Source of the DNA: Proteobacteria bacterium CG1_02_64_396
Lineage (GTDB): Bacteria; Pseudomonadota; MNWR01; CG1-02-64-396
DNA length: 33,834 nucleotides
Reading direction: 5' to 3'
Assembly (NCBI GenBank): GCA_001872725.1
Contig: MNWR01000039.1
Span: 1-33,834 of the forward strand
The notes beneath the pieces are model-generated. The model searched no databases and had not been told where the DNA came from. It saw nothing but the letters and a program-made list of their open reading frames with translations. This document shows, one piece after another, positions 4,319 through 17,829 of the stretch (within the stretch, counting starts at the first letter, position 1; every line of letters starts with the position of its first letter). The position numbers were made by a program, and so were the translations under genes.

Positions 4319-5626
4319 TTAGGCCCCCTCCCCCAGCAACAACGCAGCCTCCCGCACCGCCTCCCCCAGCGTCGGATGGGCCGCCACCGTCTTCGCAAAA
4401 ACGGAGGGGGTCAGCTTGAGCTGCACCGCCAACGCCACCGGGGCGATCAGTTCGCTCGCCTCGATCCCGACGATGCTGCCGCCGCAGATCGCCCCATCCT
4501 CCCCGGCATACAGCTGCACGAAGCCGTCGGTGGCGTTCAGGGTGCGGGCGCGGCCGTTGGCGGCCAGGTTGATGCGGGCGGAGCGGTTCGATACCGCCCC
4601 CACCGTCGCCGCCTCGGGGAAGGCAAAAATGCAGGCGGGGATGGCGCGGCCTTCAAAACGGCCGTCGATCCCCGCGAGCACCTCAGCGACCACCTCCCCC
4701 TGCCGTGAGGCGACGTGGGCCAGCCCCTGACCGGCGACATCGCCGATGGCGAAGACGCTGGGCAGGGTGGTGCGGCATTGGGCGTCGACCTCGATCCCGA
4801 AGCGGCCCACGTCGATCCCGAGGGCGGCCAAGTCCCCCACCCCGGTGTTGGGGCGCCGCCCCACCGCGACCAGAAGCTCATCGAAACCGACCGGCTCGCT
4901 CAGCCCCTCGACCGTAGCAACCCCGGCCTCGGCGCCGCGCACCAAGCAGCCGGTGCGAATCGTCACCCCACCCCGTTGCAACGCCCCGGTCAGCGCCTGG
5001 GCCACCTCGGGATCGACCCCCGGCAGCAACCGCTCGGTCGCCTCGACCACCGTCACCTTGCTGCCCAGGGCAGCGGCGATGGCGGCGAATTCGACCCCGA
5101 TCACCCCGCCACCGACGATGAGCAACCGCTCGGGCAGCGCCTCAAGATCGAACAGATCGCGGTTGGTGATCCCCGCCAAACCGGAGATCTCGGCGGGGCG
5201 CGAACCGGTGGCGATGACGATGTGGCGGGCCGCAATCCGCCGCTCGCCGTCGATGCTTACCAGGTGTGGCCCCTCAATCCGCCCCCAGCCACCCATCGTC
5301 TCGACTCCGGCATCCTTGAGCAGCCGCTCGATCCCCATGCGCGAGCTCTTCACCACCCGTTGCACATGCCCCTTGGCCTTGCCCCAGTCGAGCTGCGCCG
5401 CCCCGAGGTTCACCCCAAGCCGGGCCGCCCCCTGGGGCGCCTTCATCATCTTGGCGACCGCGTGCAGCGCCTTGGTTGGGATGCAGCCCCAGTTGGTGCA
5501 CTCCCCCCCCAGCGCCCCCGCCTCGATCAGCGCCGTCTTCAGACCGCGCCGGGCCGCCTCCACGGCGCAAACATAGCCGCCGGGACCGCCGCCGATCACC
5601 ACCACATCGAATTCGAACCCGCTCAT
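4319..5626 (-). CDS. lpdA: Dihydrolipoyl dehydrogenase (L-protein / E3)
   Basis: This flavoprotein reoxidises dihydrolipoyl groups with NAD+; here it most likely serves the glycine cleavage H-protein. The 435-residue chain has an FAD-binding GGGPGGY near residue 12, the redox disulphide Cys43-Cys48 in GGECTNWGCIPTKAL, the NAD-binding GGGVIGVEFA, AIGDVAGQGLAHVA in the second FAD contact, and AHPTLGEAV at the C-terminus with the catalytic His of the partner subunit. It is shorter than the usual 460-475; part of the loss is near PEAATVGAVSNRSARINLAA, where about a dozen residues are missing. I chose the ATG that overlaps the lplA stop as ATGA; another ATG lies five codons upstream. It is the last gene of the gcv/lip block, which supports a dedicated role in glycine cleavage. 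Confidence 0.95.
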   Translation of the reverse strand: MSGFEFDVVVIGGGPGGYVCAVEAARRGLKTALIEAGALGGECTNWGCIPTKALHAVAKMMKAPQGAARLGVNLGAAQLDWGKAKGHVQRVVKSSRMGIERLLKDAGVETMGGWGRIEGPHLVSIDGERRIAARHIVIATGSRPAEISGLAGITNRDLFDLEALPERLLIVGGGVIGVEFAAIAAALGSKVTVVEATERLLPGVDPEVAQALTGALQRGGVTIRTGCLVRGAEAGVATVEGLSEPVGFDELLVAVGRRPNTGVGDLAALGIDVGRFGIEVDAQCRTTLPSVFAIGDVAGQGLAHVASRQGEVVAEVLAGIDGRFEGRAIPACIFAFPEAATVGAVSNRSARINLAANGRARTLNATDGFVQLYAGEDGAICGGSIVGIEASELIAPVALAVQLKLTPSVFAKTVAAHPTLGEAVREAALLLGEGA

Positions 5627-6387
5627 CGCCGCATCACCCATTCGTCGCTTGCGTACTTTTTTAGCAAATCGGGAATTCTTTTTTGTTCGTCCGCCGTTAA
5701 GGAAGCGGGGGTGAGGGTGAGATCCAAAGCCTCGACAAATCCCGCTTGCATCGCCGCCGCCGCTTCACCGAAGCCGACCTCCCGTCCCAGAATTTGCTCG
5801 GCTGAGGTTACCCTTTGTCGTACATCCCGGATCAGTTTGCCCCGCATCTTCTCGTCGGCCACTTGGAGCAACCGGAACATCCGCTCCACGTCGACCCCGA
5901 GTAAAACGGTGCCGTGTTGCAACAGCCCCCCGTGTTTGCGGGTTTGAGCCTGACCGCCGAGTTTTTGTGGAATGTCGTTCGCCGTAACCACGTCGTTGAG
6001 GGGGGCAAAGCGGGCCGCGATGCCCAACTTTGCCAGCCCCGCCACGACGCCTGTGCAGATCCTTTCGTAGCTCTCCAGAATCGTCCCCGCCCCCAGGGGA
6101 TGCCCGGCGGGGAGGACCAACGAGTAGGTCAGCTCGGCGTCGTGAAAGACCGCTCCACCGCCGGTGATGCGACGAACGACCGTCACCCCCTCGCTACGGC
6201 AGGCGGTCAGGTCGAGCTCGTCCCCCGCCGATTGAAAATAGCCCAGACTCACCGCCGCCGGGGACCAGGCGTAGAGGCGCAGGGTCGGAATCGCCTCCAC
6301 CCCCCCCAGCAAAATTGCCTCGTCGACCGCCATGTTGCGGGCGGCGGGCTGGGGGCCATCGACGATCAGCCGCAGCTCATTCGCCAT
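5623..6387 (-). CDS. lplA: Lipoate-protein ligase A, catalytic chain of a two-part ligase
   Basis: This 254-residue protein of the LplA/LipB/LipM fold attaches lipoate (or octanoate) to the lysine of lipoyl domains, here probably GcvH. Conserved features are RRITGGGAVFHD (residues 72-83, lipoyl-AMP binding), KLGGQAQ with catalytic Lys142, and LLQHGTVLL. The C-terminal accessory domain of E. coli-type LplA is absent but is encoded by the gene just upstream (lplB), as in Thermoplasma. The only cysteines (63 and 111) come before the catalytic lysine, so the Cys-dependent octanoyltransferase LipM is less likely. The start overlaps the lplB stop by 11 bases and the stop overlaps the lpdA start, so the three are co-translated. 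Ligase versus transferase activity cannot be decided from sequence alone. Confidence 0.88.
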   Translation of the reverse strand: MANELRLIVDGPQPAARNMAVDEAILLGGVEAIPTLRLYAWSPAAVSLGYFQSAGDELDLTACRSEGVTVVRRITGGGAVFHDAELTYSLVLPAGHPLGAGTILESYERICTGVVAGLAKLGIAARFAPLNDVVTANDIPQKLGGQAQTRKHGGLLQHGTVLLGVDVERMFRLLQVADEKMRGKLIRDVRQRVTSAEQILGREVGFGEAAAAMQAGFVEALDLTLTPASLTADEQKRIPDLLKKYASDEWVMRR

Positions 6388-6676
6388 GGCCCGCCTCCTG
6401 AATCCCCTTCTCGATGGCCGCTTTCAGGTCGTCGGGGGTGATGCCAAACCATTGGGCCGGATGACTCTGCACTGCCGAGTCGAGCATTTCGCCCACCGCT
6501 CGCTTGGTGGCAGGGCCTCCTAAAAAAACGGCCTCGATCGCCTCCAAAGCCTCTTCGGGGTGGATGAAAAAGTCGCCCTCGACCCGCAGCCGAGCGATGC
6601 GTCCCCCCTCCAGGCGCAGCTTGACCCGGAAGAGTTTGCCGCCGGGGGGTTTTTCGGTGATGAGGATTTCAGGCAT
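6377..6676 (-). CDS. lplB: Lipoate-protein ligase accessory subunit (LplB-like)
   Basis: This 99-residue protein begins MPEILITEKPPGGKLFRVKL. It resembles the C-terminal accessory domain of bacterial lipoate ligases: a small alpha/beta unit with RVEGDFFIHPEEALEAIEAV and a final helix after WFGITPDDLKAAI. In split systems this chain is needed for lipoate adenylation by LplA. The frame is open further upstream, but that part reads through repeat DNA; the ATG at 6676 gives the domain its normal length. It overlaps lplA by 11 bases. The 276-base gap to lipA holds repeats only, so it may have its own promoter. Confidence 0.8.
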   Translation of the reverse strand: MPEILITEKPPGGKLFRVKLRLEGGRIARLRVEGDFFIHPEEALEAIEAVFLGGPATKRAVGEMLDSAVQSHPAQWFGITPDDLKAAIEKGIQEAGHGE

Positions 6677-6718
6677 GAGGCAGGCTCGATTGATCTGTGG
6701 AAACAATTCGGCATCGGG

Positions 6719-6756
6719 TGGATTCCGGGTTGCCTTTGGCGCCCCGGAATGACGCG
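6719..6756. repeat. REP-like palindrome
   Basis: ATTCCGGGTTGCC and GGCGCCCCGGAATGAC form an imperfect palindrome built on CCGGG/CCCGG, resembling the common proteobacterial REP with a CCCGGAAT core. It is one of several repeats in the lplB-lipA gap. Confidence 0.45.
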
Positions 6757-6777
6757 AAGGGTGGGCGGCGTTGCGGC

Positions 6778-6902
6778 GTAGGGTGCATCCACCAACCGCC
6801 CTCACCCCGACCCCCGCTCATCCCGATTGGGAACCCAAGGCCCATCTGTCGGGGGTTCACCCACCGCTGGTTTGGTGGATGCGCTGCGTTTATCCACCCT
6901 AC
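6778..6902. repeat. REP-like pair in lplB-lipA gap
   Basis: A half copy (GTAGGGTGCATCCACC, 6778-6793) and an inverted fuller copy (GGTGGATGCGCTGCG... to CACCCTAC, 6874-6902) bracket about 80 bases. The same palindrome, of the form GTAGGGTGGATAAGC plus GCGCATCCACC, occurs at 12176-12204, 12300-12326, 33212-33240 and in the tandem array at the right end. Confidence 0.7.
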
Positions 6903-6952
6903 GAACTGCTTCTTACGGTTTTCCTTTTTGAACATGACCGCGCAACCGCCCC

Positions 6953-7849
6953 TCACCCCGACCCCCTCCCCGTGAAGGGCGAGGGGGATTTCTCTTGGAT
7001 GGCTTGCAGCCCCGCCCGGTCGGCCCGAAAGCTGGAGCGCACCAACGGCCCCGCCTCGACGAAACCGATTCCGGCGGCCTGAGCCGCCTCGGCCAGCGCG
7101 TCGAATTCGGCTTGGCTCAGATGGCGTACCACCGGCAGGCTTGTCTTGCTCGGTTGCAGGTACTGCCCCAACGCCAGGATGGAGACCCCCGCCTCGACCA
7201 GCCGCCCGAAGAGCGCCACCACCTCGCGGCGCTCCTCCCCCAACCCCAGCATCAGCGCCGTCTTGACCGGAATTGCGGGGGCGGCTTGGTGGAAGTCGGC
7301 CAGCAGATTGAGCGAGGTGGCGACGTTTCCGACCCGGATGCCGGGGTAGAGGCGGGGAATCGTTTCGATGTTGTGCGAAAAGACATCGGGGGGATGGCGC
7401 AGCAGGATTTCGATGGCGCCAGGCTTACCGGCGAAATCGGGGGTCAGGATCTCGATCTTGCAGCCGGGGGCGTGATGGCGGATTGCCGCGACGGTCGCGG
7501 CGAAGTGGCCCGCCAAACCGTCGGGCAGGTCGTCCCGGTTGACCGAGGTCAGGACGACGTAGGTCAGCCCCAGCTCCCCCAACAGCCGCCCGATGCGTTG
7601 CGGTTCATCGCCATCAAGCGGCTCCAGCTCGCCGTAGCCGACCGAGCAATAGGGGCAGTTTCGGGAGCAGCGGGGACCGCCGATCATGAAGGTGGCGACT
7701 TTGTGGGACCAGCACTCCCCCATGTTGGGGCAGTTGGCCTCGGCGCAGACGGTGTTGAGGTTGTGCTCCTGCAACCGGCGGCGCAGCCAAAAAAACTCGG
7801 GGCTGGAGGGCAGGGGGACGACGGTGCGGACGTGCGGCCTGCTGCCCAT
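6953..7849 (-). CDS. lipA: Lipoyl synthase
   Basis: This radical-SAM enzyme inserts two sulphurs into protein-bound octanoate to make lipoate. Near the start the auxiliary iron-sulphur cluster cysteines are Cys36, Cys41 and Cys47 (VCAEANCPNMGEC), and the SAM cluster is Cys62-x3-Cys66-x2-Cys69 (RCSRNCPYCS). VLTSVNRDDLPDG, FSHNIETIPRLYP, GLGEE and GQYLQPSK follow. PLVRSSF near the C-terminus gives the conserved RSS serine. I chose the ATG that shares a base with the preceding HD-GYP stop (TGATG); a TTG one codon earlier is possible. The last dozen residues (KSPSPFTGRGSG) come from a repeat-like sequence and are not typical of LipA. Beside lplA it suggests both lipoate scavenging and de novo synthesis feed GcvH. 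Confidence 0.96.
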   Translation of the reverse strand: MGSRPHVRTVVPLPSSPEFFWLRRRLQEHNLNTVCAEANCPNMGECWSHKVATFMIGGPRCSRNCPYCSVGYGELEPLDGDEPQRIGRLLGELGLTYVVLTSVNRDDLPDGLAGHFAATVAAIRHHAPGCKIEILTPDFAGKPGAIEILLRHPPDVFSHNIETIPRLYPGIRVGNVATSLNLLADFHQAAPAIPVKTALMLGLGEERREVVALFGRLVEAGVSILALGQYLQPSKTSLPVVRHLSQAEFDALAEAAQAAGIGFVEAGPLVRSSFRADRAGLQAIQEKSPSPFTGRGSG

Positions 7850-8865
7850 CAAAATTGGCTTTCGAATTCAAACCGCTCCGAACCAAACAAATCGCGACAC
7901 ACATCGACCACGCCAGCGTCGTACTTCACCCCCCGCCCCGTGCGGATCTCCTCCATCGCCTCTTCCAGGGTTTTGGCGGGGCGGTAGGGACGATAAGAGA
8001 GCATTGCCTCGACCACATCGGCAACCCCGACGATGCGGGCCTCCAAACCGATCTGCCCCCCCTGCAAACCCAAGGGGTAGCCCGAGCCGTCGAGCCTCTC
8101 GTGGTGATGGTGGACCATCTCGGCCACCGGCCAGGGGAAGGAGATGTCGCCCAGGATCTCCTGTCCCACTCCGGTATGGGTCTTAATGACCTCGAACTCG
8201 ATGGGACTCAGGGTCGAGGGTTTGGTCAGCAGTTCGGCGGGGATGGTGATCTTGCCGATGTCGTGGATGGCGGCTCCCAAACGGACCCCCTCGACCCGGT
8301 CGGGATCGAGCCCCAGCCCCCAGGCAAGCGCCTCGGCGAGCTGGGCGACCCGGCGTTGATGCCCGGCGGTGTAGGGATCGCGGGCCTCCACCGCCTTGGC
8401 GATGGCGTGGACCGTCCCTGACAGCGCCTCGCGTAGCCTTTGGTTGCTTTCACGCAGCGCCTGCCGGTCGCTCAGCTGTTGCCGCCGCCCCTCCCCCTCG
8501 GCCAGGGCACGGCGGATCACCGGCCCCAGACGCAGCGCCTCTTGGGTTGCAACGAAGTCGTAGGCACCCCGGTGCATCAACTCCACCGCAGTGGTCAGGT
8601 CGAGATCCTCCGACATCACCACCACGGGCAGGTCGCCCTGGGGGCTGCTTTGCACCACCTCCAGGGCGGATGCGGCTGAAAACCGGGGCAACTGCGCAGC
8701 CACCACCGCCAGATCGAAGCGCTGCACCTTCAGCTGCGCCGCCAAGGTTGCAGCCTCTTCGACCCGCTCGATTTCGGGACGAAATCCCGCCTGCCTCAGC
8801 TCGGAGTCGAGCTGCGCCACCACGTCGTCCGAAGGGGCGATGGCCAACACATGCAATGACCCCAT
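7849..8865 (-). CDS. HD-GYP protein with degenerate receiver domain
   Basis: This 338-residue protein has an N-terminal response-regulator-like domain (about 1-120) and a C-terminal HD-GYP domain (about 150-335) of the kind that hydrolyses cyclic di-GMP. The receiver keeps the acidic pair Asp13-Asp14, but the phosphorylated Asp is replaced by Ala56 (FDLAVVAAQLP) and the conserved Lys is missing (DFVATQEAL), so it should not be switched by phosphorylation. The HD-GYP part is complete: His201-Asp202 (HDIGKI), HHHH at 252-255 and LDGSGYP at 258-264. It sits 27 bases after gcvPB, behind GAGG, and its stop overlaps the lipA start, inside the glycine cleavage/lipoylation block. Such placement is unusual. 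A role in regulating that pathway is only an inference. Confidence 0.9.
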   Translation of the reverse strand: MGSLHVLAIAPSDDVVAQLDSELRQAGFRPEIERVEEAATLAAQLKVQRFDLAVVAAQLPRFSAASALEVVQSSPQGDLPVVVMSEDLDLTTAVELMHRGAYDFVATQEALRLGPVIRRALAEGEGRRQQLSDRQALRESNQRLREALSGTVHAIAKAVEARDPYTAGHQRRVAQLAEALAWGLGLDPDRVEGVRLGAAIHDIGKITIPAELLTKPSTLSPIEFEVIKTHTGVGQEILGDISFPWPVAEMVHHHHERLDGSGYPLGLQGGQIGLEARIVGVADVVEAMLSYRPYRPAKTLEEAMEEIRTGRGVKYDAGVVDVCRDLFGSERFEFESQF

Positions 8866-8892
8866 GACTTGGGTGCCTCACAAAAAAGGGGA

Positions 8893-10323
8893 TCAGTCCC
8901 CGTGTTTGAGCGCCGGCTTACGGGCCGCCGCCACTTCGTCGAAACGGCTGACTGCGGTGGTGACCGGGGCGCGGTGGAGCAGGTCTGGGTCAGAGGCCGC
9001 CTCTTGCAGCACCGCCTCCATCGCCGCCACGAAGGCGTCGAGCGCCTCCAGCGCTTCGGTCTCGGTCGGCTCGATCATCAGAGCCCCCGACACATTGATG
9101 GGGAAGTAGACGGTGGGGGGATGAACCCCGTAGTCGATCAACCGCTTGGCGATGTCGAGGGTTTTGATGCCGTTGGGGACCCCCTCGTCGTTGAGGACGA
9201 ACTCGTGCTGACAGACCCGGTTGTAGGGGAGGTTGAAATTCGTTTGCAGCCGAACCCGCAGGTAGTTGGCGTTGAGCACCGCCTGCCGCCCGATCTGGGC
9301 GACCCCCTCTTCCCCCAAAGCGCTCAGATAGGCGTAGGCCCGTATCAACATGCCGAAGTGGCCGAAGAACCCCTTCATTCTTCCCAGGGTGTGGGGGTGT
9401 CCCTCCTCGGCTTGCATGACGAAGCGGTCGCCCAGGTTGACGACCCGCGGCACCGGCAGATACCCCTCAAGTTTTGCCACCACCCCGACCGGGCCGGAGC
9501 CGGGACCGCCGCCGCCGTGGGGGGTCGAGAAGGACTTGTGCAGGTTGAGGTGGACGATGTCGAACCCCATGTCGGCAATGCGGGCCACCCCGAGCACCGC
9601 GTTGGCGTTGGCGCCGTCGCAATAAAACAGGGCGCCGCGCTCGTGCAGAATCTGGGCGATCACCCCGATGCGCCGGTCGAACAGCCCCAGGGTGTTGGGG
9701 TTGGTGAGCATCAGCCCCACGGTGGTCTCGTCGACCAACGCCGCGAGCGCGGCCAGGTCGACCTCGCCGTGTTCGTCCGACGGCACCGTCTTGACGTCGA
9801 AACCGCAAAAGGCGGCGGTGGCCGGATTGGTGCCGTGGGCCGAGTCGGGGATGAGGATCGTGCGCCGCTGGGTTTGCCCCAGGGCGTCGAAGTGGGCCTT
9901 CATGATCATCACCCCGGTCAGCTCACCGTGGGCACCGGCTGCCGGTTGCAGGGTGAAGGCGGCCATGCCGGTGACGGCGCACAGCTGTTGTTCGAGCTCC
10001 CACATCAACCGCAGCGCCCCTTGTGTCGATTCGCTCGGGGTGGCGGGATGGAGATCGGCAAAGCCGGGCAGAGCGGCGCCGTCCTCATTAATGCGGGGGT
10101 TGTACTTCATGGTGCACGACCCCAGCGGATAAAAGCCGTTGTCGACCCCGAAGTTGAGGGTTGAAAGGTTGGTGTAATGGGCCACCACGTCCCGCTCCCC
10201 CATCTCGGGCAGCGACAGGCTCTCGCGGGTCAGTTCGACCGGCAGCGTCGCAGCGGGAACCTCAAGCTCGGGCAGGAAGAAGCCGGTGCGGCCCGGCACG
10301 CTGCGGTCATAGACGGTTTTCAT
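8893..10323 (-). CDS. gcvPB: Glycine dehydrogenase (decarboxylating), subunit 2
   Basis: This is the C-terminal half of the PLP-dependent P-protein, made as a separate 476-residue chain. With GcvPA it decarboxylates glycine and passes the aminomethyl group to the lipoyl arm of GcvH. It holds the PLP-binding lysine region NLHKSFSTPHGGGGPG, AHGTNPATAAFCGF, and YPLGSCTMKYNPRINE near the N-terminus. I use the ATG that overlaps the gcvPA stop by four bases (ATGA), which removes a 17-residue upstream extension. The length is close to split-P homologues. Split P-proteins are known in many bacteria and archaea, in contrast to the single chain of E. coli. Confidence 0.97.
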   Translation of the reverse strand: MKTVYDRSVPGRTGFFLPELEVPAATLPVELTRESLSLPEMGERDVVAHYTNLSTLNFGVDNGFYPLGSCTMKYNPRINEDGAALPGFADLHPATPSESTQGALRLMWELEQQLCAVTGMAAFTLQPAAGAHGELTGVMIMKAHFDALGQTQRRTILIPDSAHGTNPATAAFCGFDVKTVPSDEHGEVDLAALAALVDETTVGLMLTNPNTLGLFDRRIGVIAQILHERGALFYCDGANANAVLGVARIADMGFDIVHLNLHKSFSTPHGGGGPGSGPVGVVAKLEGYLPVPRVVNLGDRFVMQAEEGHPHTLGRMKGFFGHFGMLIRAYAYLSALGEEGVAQIGRQAVLNANYLRVRLQTNFNLPYNRVCQHEFVLNDEGVPNGIKTLDIAKRLIDYGVHPPTVYFPINVSGALMIEPTETEALEALDAFVAAMEAVLQEAASDPDLLHRAPVTTAVSRFDEVAAARKPALKHGD

Positions 10324-11660
10324 GCCATGCCCCCTTTCAAGGCCGCGGTCAAGGCGGTGGCCAAGGCATCGCACTCAGCCTTGGTGTTGTTTTCGGTGGC
10401 GCACAGCAGCAATCCATCCTTGAACTCGGGGTAGTCGTCGCCGGTGGTCACCCCGGCCAGAAAACCTTGCGCCGCCAGTAGGTGGCGCACCTTGCCCGGA
10501 TCGGGCACCTGTACCGCGAATTCGTTGTAGGTCGGCCCTTCGAAGAGCGCCCCAATACCGGGAATCGCGGTCACCTGGGTCTTGAGGTATTCGCTCATGG
10601 CGTGGCTTTGGCGTGCCACCGTCTGGAGTTGCGGCCCGACCAGGCTCAGATAAATCGTGGCGATCAGGGCGTTGAGCCCCTGGTTGGTGCAGATGTTCGA
10701 GGTCGCCTTGTCGCGGCGGATGTGCTGCTCGCGTGCTTGCAAGGTCAACACAAAGCCGTCGCGCCCCTGGGCATCCTTGGCCCGCCCGACCAGACGGCCC
10801 GGAATCTTGCGCATCAGCGGGGTTTTGACCGCCAGCAGCCCCAAATGGGGGCCGCCGAACTGCATCGGAATCCCGAAAGCCTGCCCCTCCCCGACGAAGA
10901 TGTCGCTCCCCTGCTCCCCCGGCGTTTTGAGCAGACCGAGCGCGGAACCCTCGACGACGCAGGCCACCGCGAACGCGCCCGCCGCATGGGCCAACTCGGC
11001 GGCAGCCTGAAACCCCTCGATCCGCCCGAAGTAGTTGGGGGACTGGGTGATGAGGGCGGCGGTGTCGCCGTCGCAGTGGGCCCGCTCAAGATCGGTGATG
11101 CCGTCGGCGCTGAGCGGCACCTCCACCAGCTCGATTCCCGCCGCATTCATGTAGGTCGCCACCACCTTGCGGTAGTCGGGATGGACACCGCGCGAAATCA
11201 GAATTTTTTTGCGGTTCTTGGCCCGCACCGCCATCAACGCCGCCTCGGCCAGGGCGGAGGCGCCGTCATACATCGAGGCGTTGGCCACATCCATGCCGCT
11301 CAAACGACAAACGTGACTCTGAAATTCGAAGATGGCGGCCAGCGTCCCTTGAGCGATCTCGGGCTGGTAGGGGGTGTAGGCGGTGAGGAATTCCCCCCGC
11401 CCGACCAGATGGGGGATCACGGCGGGGCGGTAGTGGCAATAGGCCCCCGCCCCGGCAAAGCAGACCAGCCGTTCGTTGGCGACGGCCAGGGTGTGCAGAA
11501 GCCGCAGCAACTCCGGTTCGCTTAAACCCCGAGGGAGCCCCAGCCCCCCCTTGAGCCGCATCGCCTCAGGGATGTCGGCAAAGAGTTCATCAACCGTTTC
11601 AACCCCGATGGCGGCGAGCATCTGCGCCTGCTGCTCGGGGGTGTTCAGGGTGTAGTGCAT
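10320..11660 (-). CDS. gcvPA: Glycine dehydrogenase (decarboxylating), subunit 1
   Basis: This is the N-terminal half of the split P-protein, 446 residues, starting MHYTLNTPEQQAQMLAAIGV behind a GAGG. It forms the heterotetrameric decarboxylase with GcvPB. Family landmarks include GAGAYCHYRPAVIPHL, TAYTPYQPEIAQGTLAAIFE, QSHVCRLSGMDVANASMYDG and FGGPHLGLLAVK. The frame is open upstream for another 20 codons, but that part has no similarity and lacks a ribosome site. It overlaps gcvPB by four bases, so the two subunits are probably made in equal amounts. The gap to gcvH is 114 bases and contains half of a REP-type repeat. Confidence 0.97.
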   Translation of the reverse strand: MHYTLNTPEQQAQMLAAIGVETVDELFADIPEAMRLKGGLGLPRGLSEPELLRLLHTLAVANERLVCFAGAGAYCHYRPAVIPHLVGRGEFLTAYTPYQPEIAQGTLAAIFEFQSHVCRLSGMDVANASMYDGASALAEAALMAVRAKNRKKILISRGVHPDYRKVVATYMNAAGIELVEVPLSADGITDLERAHCDGDTAALITQSPNYFGRIEGFQAAAELAHAAGAFAVACVVEGSALGLLKTPGEQGSDIFVGEGQAFGIPMQFGGPHLGLLAVKTPLMRKIPGRLVGRAKDAQGRDGFVLTLQAREQHIRRDKATSNICTNQGLNALIATIYLSLVGPQLQTVARQSHAMSEYLKTQVTAIPGIGALFEGPTYNEFAVQVPDPGKVRHLLAAQGFLAGVTTGDDYPEFKDGLLLCATENNTKAECDALATALTAALKGGMA

Positions 11661-11774: not shown

Positions 11775-12149
11775 TTACCCCCCGGCCACCAACGCCTCGT
11801 AGGCCGCCGCGTCCAGCAAGCCGTCGAGCTGAGCGGCGTCGCTGAGCTCCAGCTTGAAAATCCACCCCTGCCCGAAGGGGTCTTGATTGAGCAGCTCGGG
11901 GGCGCCGTCGAGCGCTTGGTTGACCGCGACGATGGTGCCGTCGGCTGGGGCGTAGACCGGGCTGGAGGCCTTGACCGAATCGATCATGCAGACCTCTTGC
12001 CCCTTGGTCACATTCATCCCCTCGGCGGGAAGCTCGACGAAGACGATGTCGGTGAGCAGCTCCTGGGCGTGGTCGGTGATGCCGACGCGCCCGTCGGCGG
12101 CGATCCATTCGTGTTGATCGGTGTAACGCAGGTGGGTCGGGTTGGACAT
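11775..12149 (-). CDS. gcvH: Glycine cleavage system H-protein
   Basis: This is the lipoyl carrier that shuttles the aminomethyl group between P, T and L proteins. From the chosen ATG the chain is 124 residues, near the 129 of E. coli. It begins MSNPTHLRYTDQHEWI, and the lipoylated lysine is Lys60 in IDSVKASSPVYAP; a Gly-rich turn (DPFGQGWIFKLE) follows in the usual place. The frame is open 18 codons further up, but that part is translated REP repeat. The ATG at 12149 lies behind GGAGG-poor DNA (ATTCGGTATGG is upstream), so the ribosome site is weak. LipA and the LplA/LplB ligase further down the block are its expected modifying enzymes. Confidence 0.96.
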   Translation of the reverse strand: MSNPTHLRYTDQHEWIAADGRVGITDHAQELLTDIVFVELPAEGMNVTKGQEVCMIDSVKASSPVYAPADGTIVAVNQALDGAPELLNQDPFGQGWIFKLELSDAAQLDGLLDAAAYEALVAGG

Positions 12150-12175: not shown

Positions 12176-12341
12176 GTAGGGTGGATAAGCGCAGCGCATC
12201 CACCAGCAGGGGGCAGCATCGAGCAAGAGCGCCGGTTTCGGCGCAGACGCTCCCTCAAACGGGCTTCACATCAAGCAAGGGTGCAGTTTCTGGGCAAAAG
12301 GTGGATGCGCTGCGCTTATCCACCCCATCGATTCACCCTAC
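12176..12341. repeat. REP-bounded repeat element between gcvT and gcvH
   Basis: A REP copy at 12176-12204 (GTAGGGTGGATAAGCGCAGC...) and an inverted copy at 12300-12326, with a further CACCCTAC at 12334-12341, enclose about 95 bases. The first roughly 60 bases inside (AGCGCCGGTTTCGGC and surroundings) match the reverse complement of the tandem unit at the right end. The gcvT stop codon (12338-12340) lies within the outer end of the element. Confidence 0.65.
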
Positions 12342-13441
12342 GGTTGCTGCTCACCCTGACGATAGGTGTACAAGGGTCGTTTCATCACCTTGGCCGCCAC
12401 GGCGCGACCGCGAATGTCGATGGCGATGGGGGCGCCAACCTCGGGGGGGGAGCCATCGAGCAGCGCCAGGCCGATCCCCGCCTCGAAGGTGGGGCTGAAG
12501 GTGCCAGAGGTGACGATCCCAGCAGGCTTGCCCTCGATCAACACCGGACAGCCGTCGCGGGGAACCCCCCGTTCGGTGAGTTGGAAGGCGATCATGTGCC
12601 GCCGCGCCGGGTTTTCTTTTTGGGCCAGCAAAGCCTCGCGCCCGACGAAATCCCCCTTATCGAAGCGGACCGCAAAGCCGATCCCCGCCTCGATGGGTGA
12701 GATCGTGTCGCTGAGCTCATGGCCATAAAGGGAATAACAGGCCTCCAGGCGCAGCACGTCCCGCGCCCCCAGCCCCGCCGGAATCAACCCCGACGGCGCC
12801 CCCGCTTCGAGCAGGGCGTCCCACAACGCGGTCGCCTCCTCGCTGGCGCAATAGAGCTCGAAGCCATCCTCGCCGGTGTAGCCGGTGCGCGACAGCGCCA
12901 CCCGAAAACCGGCCACCACCCCGTGGCCGAATTCGAAGCGGCCCAGCTCGTCGAGGTCGAAATCGATCAGGTTTTGCAGGATCGCCTGCGACTTCGGCCC
13001 TTGCAGATCGAGCTTGGCGGTGGCGTCGGACAGGTCGATCAGATCGGCCTCGGCCTGCCCAATGTGGGATGCAATCCAGGCGAAGTCCTTCTCACAGTTG
13101 GCGGCGTTGACCACCAACATGAAGGCGTTGTCGCTAAAGCGGTAGACGAACAGGTCATCCACCGTTCCGCCCTCCTCGCGGCACAAGGCGGCATAAAAGG
13201 CCTTGCCGCTCGGCAACCGGGTCAAATCGTTGGTGATCAGCCGTTGCAGCACCTGCTCGGCATCGGGGCCGCGCAGGTCGAATTCGCCCATGTGGCTGAT
13301 GTCGTAAAGCGCCGCTGCTTTGCGGGTCGCCTCGACCTCTTGCTTGATTGAGGAATAAACCACCGGCATGGCCCAACCGCCAAAACCGACCATACGGGCA
13401 CCGAGGGCGACGTGGGCATCGAACAAAGGGGTTTGTTTCAA
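12338..13441 (-). CDS. gcvT: Aminomethyltransferase (glycine cleavage T-protein)
   Basis: It transfers the methylene group from the H-protein arm to tetrahydrofolate, releasing ammonia. The chain is 367 residues, near the usual 360-370. It reads KQTPLFDAHVALGARMVGFG, ALYDISHMGEFDLRGPDA, GTVDDLFVYRF, DLQGPKSQAIL, RTGYTGEDGFELYCASE and ARDVLRLEACYSLYGHEL, all in the family order. The start is a TTG, seven bases behind a GGAG. It is the first gene of the gcv block. Only 64 bases separate it from the preceding gene, and these carry a terminator-type hairpin, so its promoter must lie very close or inside the upstream gene. No glycine riboswitch fits there. The stop codon is provided by a repeat element. 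Confidence 0.97.
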   Translation of the reverse strand: MKQTPLFDAHVALGARMVGFGGWAMPVVYSSIKQEVEATRKAAALYDISHMGEFDLRGPDAEQVLQRLITNDLTRLPSGKAFYAALCREEGGTVDDLFVYRFSDNAFMLVVNAANCEKDFAWIASHIGQAEADLIDLSDATAKLDLQGPKSQAILQNLIDFDLDELGRFEFGHGVVAGFRVALSRTGYTGEDGFELYCASEEATALWDALLEAGAPSGLIPAGLGARDVLRLEACYSLYGHELSDTISPIEAGIGFAVRFDKGDFVGREALLAQKENPARRHMIAFQLTERGVPRDGCPVLIEGKPAGIVTSGTFSPTFEAGIGLALLDGSPPEVGAPIAIDIRGRAVAAKVMKRPLYTYRQGEQQP

Positions 13442-14605: not shown

Positions 14606-16690
14606 ATGGACACCAGAGCCATCCCCTTTGCCGTCGCCTTGTGCCTTCCCCTGCTGGGGACGACCCACGCGCTGGCCGACGACGCCCCCCTTGTGGTGGC
14701 CATGGACGACCAGGCCGAATTTCAAAGCCTGCTCAACATTCTGGAAGAACAAACCGAAATCGCCACCAAAACAAAACTCAATGCCGACTACGTTCCCGGC
14801 ATGGTGACGGTGCTGCACGGAATCACCCTTGAAAGCGGCGGGGTTAACTCGGTTTGGGAGGCGCTGCGCCGGGTTCCCGGCTTCTACACCAGCCGGGATC
14901 GCACCGGGAATCTCGTTGCGGTCGTGCGCGGTTCGGGGGGGCTGTTCGCCTCGGGCAACCTTAAGGTGTTGCTCGACGGCATCGCCATGAACGAGTCCTC
15001 AGCCGCCAGTGCCGATTTGGTTTTCAGCCTGCCCATCGAGCAGGTTGAGCGGATCGAGGTTATCCGCGGCCCCGGCTCGGTGGTCCACGGCGAATTCGCC
15101 TACTCCGGAGTGGTTAATGTTGTCACCCGTAAAGAGGGGACTCGCGCCTTCGCGGGCATCGGACAGGGTAACAGTCGGCGGGGAGGGCTACTCGCCTCCT
15201 GGCAGAATCCCGAACAAGACAGCTTCCTCAGCCTCAACATGGCCGGTTCGATCATCCCGCGTGGCGATACCCAGATCGGCAACGACTGGCTTCATGCGGC
15301 GGGGATGTCGGTGTTGTCCAACGCCCCCGGCACCCTGCTCGACGGCAAGCACGAGGGGGCGATCATCCTCAACGGCGGTTACCGCGATTTAACCCTAACC
15401 GCCCACTGGACCCAGGATGCTCGGGACGACTTCGCCGGTAAAAGTTACCTGCTCCCCCCCGCCCAAGATGGTTTGGCTTCGCGCTCCACCAATCTGGGGG
15501 TGCAGATGGAGTACCAACACGATGTTTCGGCCTCCCTACAAACCAAGACAATGGTAGGGCTGCGCGATTACAGCAATTGGTACGACGCCTACTTCTACCC
15601 CGCCGGTATGCCGTGGCCGGTCGCCCCAGGCGCCCTCATCGTTGATACCCGCGCCCAAGGGTATTACAGCGAGCGGGAATGGCGGGCCGAGGGCGATCTG
15701 ACCTGGAACCCCGACGATCAGAACACCGCCCTATTGTCGCTTTCGGCCTCCCGCATCGATGTGGTCGATTCCTGGATGGACACCACCGTCGACCGGCTCG
15801 CCCAGCCCCCCCTTGCCGCCCCGACCCACTTCACCAGCGGCGTTCAGGTCCCCATTGATGCCGCCCAAGGGCGCACGGTCTTGGGGATCACCCTTCAAGA
15901 GGAGTACCGCCCCAGCGAGGCGATGACCTTGACCGGGGGGGTGCGCTACGACCGGTTTTCGGATGTAGGGGGGAGCGTGAATCCCCGCTTTGCCGCCGTG
16001 TGGCGTTTGGATCGCAGCAACATCCTCAAGGTGCAGTACGCCGAGGCCTTCCGCCCCCCCACCTTTTTAGAACTGCACAACGGGATCGACGTTAAGCCGG
16101 AGACCATCGCCTCCATCGAGATCGGCTACATCCACCGTGGCAGCAATACCACCGAGCGGGTGACCCTGTTCCAAAACGACTACCGCGATCTCATCCTCGA
16201 AAACAGCGTGTTCCAGTTCCACAACGCCCAAACCGCACGTGCTCAAGGGATCGAGGTCGAGGAGGAGGTCACGCTGGGGACCAGTTGGATCGGCAAGGGG
16301 AACGTGTCGTACCTGACCACCCGCGACCGGGCGACCGGGGCGGCCATTGCCGGCACCACCCCTTGGCTGGGCAACCTGATCGTCACCTACACCCCGGTCA
16401 GCGGCGACAGCCTTGAGTTGAGTCTGCATTACGTCGGCACCCGCTACCGCGAAACCGGGGACAGCCGAGCCAAACTGGGGGCCGAGACCACCGCCGACCT
16501 GAGCGGGGTCTGGAGTCCCGACCTGTTGCCCGAACTATCGCTCTCGGGGACGGTGCGCAACCTCTTCAATGTCGACACCCACATTCCCGCCATGCTGACC
16601 CCCCCCGCCCAGGGCAGTTTGCCGGGGTATCCCAACGATTTGCCCGGCTCCAAACGGAGCTGGTGGTTGAAACTGGCTTACACGCTGTAA
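14606..16690 (+). CDS. TonB-dependent outer-membrane receptor
   Basis: The chain is 694 residues, with a signal peptide ending ALA (22-24). A short N-terminal stretch, SLLNILEEQTEIATKTKLNA, leads into the plug domain (about residues 60-190: SVWEALRRVPGFYTSRD, VLLDGIAMNE, IEQVERIEVIRGPGSVVHGE, GVVNVVTRK). The rest is a beta-barrel with sections such as VRYDRFSDVGGSVNPRFAAV, VQYAEAFRPPTFLELHNG and a C-terminal strand ending KLAYTL. It imports a ligand with energy from TonB; the ligand cannot be read from sequence. It is followed at 50 bases by signalling genes, so it may act as a sensor-linked receptor. The same ATKTKLNADYVPGMVTVL-type N-terminus is common in receptors found beside YfiR-like genes; that point is from memory. 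The ribosome site is weak. Confidence 0.93.
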   Translation: MDTRAIPFAVALCLPLLGTTHALADDAPLVVAMDDQAEFQSLLNILEEQTEIATKTKLNADYVPGMVTVLHGITLESGGVNSVWEALRRVPGFYTSRDRTGNLVAVVRGSGGLFASGNLKVLLDGIAMNESSAASADLVFSLPIEQVERIEVIRGPGSVVHGEFAYSGVVNVVTRKEGTRAFAGIGQGNSRRGGLLASWQNPEQDSFLSLNMAGSIIPRGDTQIGNDWLHAAGMSVLSNAPGTLLDGKHEGAIILNGGYRDLTLTAHWTQDARDDFAGKSYLLPPAQDGLASRSTNLGVQMEYQHDVSASLQTKTMVGLRDYSNWYDAYFYPAGMPWPVAPGALIVDTRAQGYYSEREWRAEGDLTWNPDDQNTALLSLSASRIDVVDSWMDTTVDRLAQPPLAAPTHFTSGVQVPIDAAQGRTVLGITLQEEYRPSEAMTLTGGVRYDRFSDVGGSVNPRFAAVWRLDRSNILKVQYAEAFRPPTFLELHNGIDVKPETIASIEIGYIHRGSNTTERVTLFQNDYRDLILENSVFQFHNAQTARAQGIEVEEEVTLGTSWIGKGNVSYLTTRDRATGAAIAGTTPWLGNLIVTYTPVSGDSLELSLHYVGTRYRETGDSRAKLGAETTADLSGVWSPDLLPELSLSGTVRNLFNVDTHIPAMLTPPAQGSLPGYPNDLPGSKRSWWLKLAYTL

Positions 16691-16740
16691 AACGGGAGAG
16701 GGTGGATTCACCGCCCCCACAGGAACGAAAGGAGCACATC

Positions 16741-17829
16741 ATGTTGGGCACGATGCCTTTGGAACAGGCCCATATTCTGATCGTCGACGACGACCCCATC
16801 GTTGCAGTGGTGTTGAGCGAAACCCTGGGCACTGCCGGTTTCACCCACATCACCACCCTACTCGATCCCCGGCAGGTGGTTGCCCGGCTGCAACAGGAGC
16901 GGGTCGATCTGATTATTCTCGATTTAGAGATGCCCCATCTGAATGGATTTCAACTGATGGCAGCCATCACCACCCTCAACATCGACCCCCCGATTCCCCT
17001 ATTGGTCGAGACGGTCCATGCCGACAGAACCACCCGCTTGAAGGCGCTGGACAGCGGCGCCAGCGATTTCGTCAGCAAACCGGTCGACGCCTCGGAATTG
17101 CGCATGCGGGTGAAAAACCTGCTGCGCGGCCATCTGTTTCATCTGGCCCTGCTGCAAACCAACCAAGATCTTGAGGAGCGGGTTCGGGTCCGCACCCACG
17201 AGATCGAGATAACCCAACTTGAGATCATCCAACGTTTGGGCAAGGCGGCGGAGTTTCGCGACAACGAAACCGGCAACCACATTCTGCGCATGAGCCATTA
17301 CACCCGGATCTTGAGTGAGGCGTTGGGGGAGCCATTCGAATATACCCAGCGACTGTTTCAGGCCAGCCCCATGCACGATGTCGGCAAGATCGGCATTCCC
17401 GACGACATCCTGTTTAAACCGGGGGAACTCAGTCCCGAGGAGTGGCGGATCATGCGCACCCACCCCAACATCGGGGCCCAGCTTCTCTCGGGCCATTCCT
17501 CCCCCCTGCTTGAAATGGCCCAGGAGATCGCCCTAACCCACCACGAAAAATGGGACGGCAGCGGCTACCCCCAGGGGCTCAAGGGGGAGCAGATTCCCCT
17601 GTCGGGACGGATCGTGGCGCTGGCCGATGTCTTCGACGCCCTGACCTCGTCCCGCCCCTATAAGGGAGCGTGGCCCTTCAGCGAGGCCCTCGCCTACATC
17701 GAACGTCAGAAGGGGCACCACTTTGATGCCGCCTTGGTGGCCCTGCTGCCGGGGGTCATCGACGCCTTCGCCAAGGTTCATGCCCAATTCACGGACATCC
17801 CCCGGCAGCCGCTGGGAGGCATTCACTAA
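16741..17829 (+). CDS. Response regulator with HD-GYP c-di-GMP phosphodiesterase output
   Basis: The 362-residue protein has a receiver domain (about 8-128) with acidic pair Asp16-Asp18, phosphorylation site Asp61 (IILDLEMP) and Lys113 in VSKPVD, so it should be phosphorylated. A coiled linker (LLQTNQDLEERVRVRTHEIE) leads into an HD-GYP domain with His212-Asp213 (MHDVGKIGIPDD), HHEKWDGSGYP (267-277) and ALADVFDALTSSRPYK. It should lower cyclic di-GMP. The ATG at 16741 is chosen for its GGAG eight bases upstream; the open frame extends further back only as shadow of the receptor gene. Its likely phosphodonor is the hybrid kinase encoded two genes downstream. Unlike the HD-GYP protein at 7849-8865, all receiver residues are present. 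Confidence 0.95.
   Translation: MLGTMPLEQAHILIVDDDPIVAVVLSETLGTAGFTHITTLLDPRQVVARLQQERVDLIILDLEMPHLNGFQLMAAITTLNIDPPIPLLVETVHADRTTRLKALDSGASDFVSKPVDASELRMRVKNLLRGHLFHLALLQTNQDLEERVRVRTHEIEITQLEIIQRLGKAAEFRDNETGNHILRMSHYTRILSEALGEPFEYTQRLFQASPMHDVGKIGIPDDILFKPGELSPEEWRIMRTHPNIGAQLLSGHSSPLLEMAQEIALTHHEKWDGSGYPQGLKGEQIPLSGRIVALADVFDALTSSRPYKGAWPFSEALAYIERQKGHHFDAALVALLPGVIDAFAKVHAQFTDIPRQPLGGIH

Follow-up and report, generated by a model that had tools for sequence, protein, structure and literature searches.

In a 33,834-nucleotide stretch (positions 1-33,834) of contig MNWR01000039.1 of Proteobacteria bacterium CG1_02_64_396 (hereafter the window), a gene encoding a receiver joined to an HD-GYP domain lies within a block of glycine cleavage (gcv) and lipoate (lip) genes, all on one strand in the order gcvT-gcvH-gcvPA-gcvPB-HD-GYP gene-lipA-lplB-lplA-lpd. 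We refer to the product of this gene as P0001, and the features of the block are as follows, in the direction of reading.

12338..13441 (-), gcvT, profile match
11775..12149 (-), gcvH, PF01597 match of 132.7 bits
10320..11720 (-), gcvPA, profile match
8893..10374 (-), gcvPB, profile match
8888..8901 (-), terminator-like hairpin GGGGA-CTGA-TCCCC followed by TTTTTT, five pairs, with the gcvPB stop codon in the loop
7849..8865 (-), receiver and HD-GYP gene (P0001), open reading frame of 338 aa with an ATG start
8491..8865 (-), pseudo-receiver of P0001, aa 1-125, with A10, P11, A56 and T107 at the chemistry positions, S85 and F104 kept
7852..8442 (-), HD-GYP catalytic domain of P0001, about aa 142-338, metal ligands kept except Glu185, which is replaced by Tyr165
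6953..7849 (-), lipA, lipoyl synthase, its ATG overlapping the HD-GYP stop (TGATG)
6377..6805 (-), lipoate-protein ligase small subunit-like gene (LplB), 61.2 bits, below the cut-off of 65
5623..6387 (-), lipoate-protein ligase catalytic subunit gene (LplA-like), profile match
4319..5641 (-), dihydrolipoyl dehydrogenase-like gene (lpd), 403.2 bits, below the cut-off of 408.8

The LplB-like and LplA-like genes form a two-part lipoate-protein ligase between lipA and lpd (5623-6805). A short inverted repeat, GGGTGGATAA-CGCAGCGCATCCACC, was read by eye in the gcvT-gcvH and lipA-lplB gaps (12180-12340 and 6830-6950), and another repeat-like stretch seems to make up the final codons of lipA. Elsewhere in the window, another REC-HD-GYP gene (16663-17829), whose receiver is intact, adjoins genes for a TonB-dependent receptor and an Hpt-bearing hybrid histidine kinase, and positions 27-902 encode the C-terminal portion of a protein of the RHS/YD-repeat type, with a TEN_YD-shell match.

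The open reading frame at 7849-8865 is a genuine receiver and HD-GYP gene, as the first-pass annotation had it, Pfam recovering both domains: HD_5 at 128.7 bits, and Response_reg at 30.5 bits against a cut-off of 30.2. The G+C content at third codon positions is the same in the receiver part (0.808) and in the HD-GYP part (0.809), which indicates that the receiver is still read as a gene, without amounting to proof of selection.

Alignment with related receivers placed Ala56 at the position of the phospho-Asp and Thr107 at that of the conserved Lys, bearing out both substitutions claimed at first pass. It also revealed a loss that had gone unreported there, the acidic pair being replaced by A10 and P11, so that all four phosphorylation residues are gone, while the coupling residues S85 and F104 are retained. 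Loss of the phospho-Asp is rare among the REC and HD-GYP open reading frames of the loci that we fetched, 47 of 49 having Asp at the phospho-site, in a non-random sample selected by likeness to P0001 and in which two entries (L003 and L098) are pieces of one gene. The exceptions are P0001 itself and L077 (Asn), a REC-PAS-HD-GYP protein from a metagenome-assembled genome labelled Thermaerobacter marianensis. Like P0001, L077 lacks both the phospho-Asp and the Lys (Gln in its place), but it differs in its PAS domain, in keeping the first acidic residue and in its strong receiver score; its gene (5248-6579 of that locus) is followed by a REC-PAS-GGDEF-HD-GYP gene. With acidic pair, phospho-Asp and Lys all absent, P0001 stands outside the canonical response regulators and groups with the Asp-less or pseudo-receivers, which have a PF00072 fold, here a predicted one with a Pfam score just 0.3 bits over the cut-off, and no phospho-Asp.

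An AlphaFold2 model of P0001 (30 alignment rows; mean pLDDT 92.8, pTM 0.74) contained a complete receiver, with alternating strands and helices from strand 3-9 to strand 103-106, and a helix spanning residues 113-162 that runs from the receiver into the HD-GYP domain. The top PDB matches of this model in Foldseek were the HD-GYP enzymes DvhD, PmGH and PA4781, receiver structures ranking lower. The N-terminal domain of PmGH differs from that of P0001. Taken together, the loss of the four pocket residues, the predicted fold and the preserved HD-GYP site make the phosphorylation-independence proposed by the first-pass annotation a well-supported expectation at the level of sequence.

The HD and HHExxDGxGYP motifs and the metal ligands place the catalytic half of P0001 in the HD-GYP family. 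Residues D163, H169, H201, D202, K205, H230, H254, H255, D283 and R292 match those of PmGH (4mcw; PMC4159591), with which P0001 shares the HD-GYP fold and seven of eight metal ligands. The exception is Glu185, where P0001 has Tyr165; the iron site of PmGH is trinuclear. Two further departures are Glu286 at the position of Asp308 (a correspondence counted along the P0001-PmGH alignment) and Arg295 at that of Lys317. The earlier statement that all HD-GYP residues are kept thus holds for the subfamily of P0001, in which the three differing residues are the majority ones (Tyr165 in 32 rows, Glu286 in 29 and Arg295 in 37 of a 40-row alignment of relatives), but not letter by letter against PmGH. 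At the Asp308 position, 29 of the 35 rows having a residue there carry Glu. The Y/F subfamily of HD-GYP proteins is described as likelier binuclear (PMC4159591), and P0001, with Tyr at the Glu185 position like this subfamily, has the catalytic ligands that a binuclear HD-GYP enzyme should have. Its substrate could be c-di-GMP or 3'3'-cGAMP, the latter being considered because the best phmmer match of P0001 in the PDB is V-cGAP3, a cGAMP-specific enzyme.

Both junctions of the gene are as initially described: 27 bp (8866-8892) separate it from gcvPB, and its stop shares one base with the ATG of lipA (TGATG). No clear ribosome site was read by eye in the 20 bases ahead of this ATG. The overlap makes co-translation with lipA likelier, and the HD-GYP gene is, judging by this arrangement, probably co-translated with it. 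On the gcvPB side lies the terminator-like hairpin at 8901-8888 (-), which the first-pass annotation had overlooked and which weakens the case for co-transcription with gcv. Its energy of -8.2 kcal/mol was equalled by 7 of 200 shuffles, and its 71-base context is no more stable than shuffled versions of it (z -0.53). The strict six-T terminator form occurs four times in the window, with a single palindrome accounting for two of the hits; 30 random sequences with the window's dinucleotide make-up averaged 0.3 such hits and never had more than 2. A broader terminator scan of the window showed no excess (10 found, 9.1 expected). A promoter scan of the window was uninformative (0 found, 1.2 expected). 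Upstream of gcvT (13492-13463) there is another terminator-like hairpin, longer than this one. The hairpin at the gcvPB stop may be a partial terminator, which a ribosome terminating at this stop would cover, and the HD-GYP gene is probably tied to gcv transcription weakly, if at all.

The position of the gene was compared with loci outside the class of its genome, which is the sole member of its genus, family, order and class among the genomes searched. An HD-GYP gene was found beside gcvPB in none of 43 other loci (30 + 13) and beside lipA in none of 29, within flanks of up to 1.5 kb that were shorter at contig ends; these loci are those of the best-scoring matches, out of all the genomes that matched gcvPB (68 and 168) or lipA (58). 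Two HD-GYP-like matches were rejected on inspection: the one beside gcvPB in L183, encoded on the opposite strand, is a REC-HDOD protein, and the one beside lipA in L140 corresponds to a receiver plus a REC-GGDEF protein. In L140 (2-1155), a lone receiver gene and this REC-GGDEF gene come after lipA and share its strand. Conversely, no gcv or lip match was detected near any of 129 other HD-GYP loci, 21 of them from the window's genome and many with flanks of just 1.5 kb. The gcvPB-HD-GYP-lipA arrangement is therefore present in one genome among those examined.

No orthologue of P0001 was recovered by a pattern scan of contigs (275 stretches matched and 115 relatives, of which the best 80 were compared), and among these 80 the best single near-full-length alignment, to L009, whose receiver is intact, reached 42%. 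Neither was an orthologue found in 398 genomes of the phylum, of which 21, its own included, match at 1e-65. Among the matches listed in this search, those outside its own genome start at residue 115 at the least, and a single longer match, covering residues 39-333, comes from a paralogue in its own genome whose receiver is intact. Searches at the family, order and class levels returned its own genome alone, and the 583 records obtained by tblastn against a plasmid collection were all below 60% identity.

The genome carries 36 GGDEF matches and 22 matches to P0001, some of which are pieces or receiver-only. The former make a c-di-GMP network likely, and the two together make the landing of an HD-GYP gene in the gcv/lip block by chance unsurprising: with about 50 c-di-GMP genes among about 2,800, a total estimated from the size of the genome, roughly 0.16 would be expected per nine-gene block. 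Recent foreign origin was considered and found unsupported, the G+C content of the gene (0.655; 0.802 at third positions) falling within the range of the 16 other window genes measured. In a tree of HD-GYP domains (114 of 126 domains), P0001 grouped with none of the paralogues included from its own genome, in a topology that is midpoint-rooted, with long branches and unsettled bootstrap.

Receivers deprived of their phospho-Asp are an established class. ALR/pseudo-receivers (PMC4395418, PMC12632262) resemble P0001 in having PF00072 without the phospho-Asp and in keeping coupling residues, but P0001 departs from the class in having also lost the acidic pair and the Lys, in its HD-GYP output and in the location of its gene beside lipA. 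Ala replaces the Asp in 9% of ALRs, the Y/T-coupling residues reportedly tend to persist in Asp-less receivers, and HD5 appears among the domain names of a figure legend in the same paper (PMC4395418). Asp-less receivers are put at about 4% of receivers and pseudo-receivers at about 6% in a representative bacterial set by a 2025 review, which calls the on/off switching of bacterial pseudo-receivers a mystery (PMC12632262). Among proteins of Pseudomonas aeruginosa, PA4781 (REC-HD-GYP; 4r8z) has the same domain order and a bi-metallic HD-GYP structure; in contrast to P0001, its receiver is phosphorylatable and then unmasks the active site, which the unphosphorylated receiver masks like a lid (PMC3774798). 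PA2572 (REC-YN-GYP) likewise combines a receiver and an HD-GYP-type domain with one non-standard half, but there it is the HD-GYP half that is non-canonical; no c-di-GMP degradation was detected for PA2572, and a two-hybrid test showed contact between its receiver and PA2573 (PMC3411652). Within the open-access literature searched, no paper paired HD-GYP with the term "degenerate receiver", which does not mean that such a pairing has never been published.

With moderate confidence, and from sequence and predicted structure, we favour P0001 as a phosphodiesterase of cyclic dinucleotides that belongs to the Y/F subfamily of HD-GYP enzymes and is under the control of an Asp-less (pseudo-) receiver. 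The receiver, connected to the catalytic domain through the long helix, would serve for dimerisation or for binding partners independently of phosphorylation, and activity would be set, without a kinase, by protein partners and by the amount of protein made. Counting against this reading, Asp308 of PmGH, whose mutation to Ala inactivated the enzyme (PMC4159591), corresponds to Glu286. Moreover, the receiver may act on the enzyme in either direction, because the unphosphorylated receiver of PA4781 closes the active site; by analogy with this lid, a receiver that cannot be phosphorylated could mean a permanently closed enzyme. A receiver locking the HD-GYP domain shut, leaving P0001 as a nucleotide-binding or scaffold protein rather than an enzyme, draws on this behaviour of PA4781 (PMC3774798) and appears rather improbable to us, as the catalytic ligands are kept as in relatives, which would be unexpected were activity useless. 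The receiver might instead be a relic decaying after the loss of its kinase, attached to a constitutive housekeeping phosphodiesterase, one of about 18 in the cell. The loss of all four chemistry residues, with Pro in place of an acidic one, the Pfam score barely over the cut-off, the 22 partly fragmentary or receiver-only matches in the genome and the failure to find an orthologue with an emptied pocket in relatives' contigs or in the 398 phylum genomes all fit such decay; the predicted fold and coupling residues are nevertheless kept, and the receiver matches the HD-GYP part in third-position G+C, as a part still read as a gene, selection not being implied. We regard this relic as unlikely.

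The remaining alternative gives the genomic position a meaning: a dedicated switch in which the pseudo-receiver senses lipoyl or glycine-cleavage status, for instance with GcvH, LipA or a small molecule as its ligand, and reduces c-di-GMP in response. The place of the gene inside a one-strand gcv/lip block and its overlap with lipA speak for it, as does a precedent from P. aeruginosa in which one-carbon flux affects c-di-GMP: levels there rose about 18-fold once the serine hydroxymethyltransferase ShrA, whose gene shares an operon with gcvH2/P2/T2, was lost, gcv mutants being non-rugose (PMC5835335). Against it stand the 43 gcvPB and 29 lipA loci with no adjacent HD-GYP gene, the hairpin ahead of the gene, the number of c-di-GMP genes expected in such a block by chance, and the glycine riboswitch, which was not seen in the window, where every Rfam family stays below its gathering score. 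We consider a dedicated switch very unlikely, and less probable still its fullest form, in which the pseudo-receiver would bind a component such as GcvH or LipA, or an intermediate, and lipoate or glycine status would thereby set c-di-GMP (or cGAMP) breakdown free of any kinase. The place of the HD-GYP gene in the block is most likely lineage-specific and no evidence for signalling dedicated to glycine. The link to glycine metabolism that the first-pass annotation had drawn from position went unsupported, and the link to c-di-GMP that it had called new is not wholly so, given the precedent described for ShrA.

The known class of its receiver and the published one-carbon precedent make P0001 a familiar type of protein in an unusual place. 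A link to glycine would matter if shown by experiment, and not otherwise. The interest of P0001 lies in the clean case that it offers, an emptied receiver pocket attached to an apparently intact enzyme, for learning what such a receiver does to its output, be it opening, closing or ignoring it.
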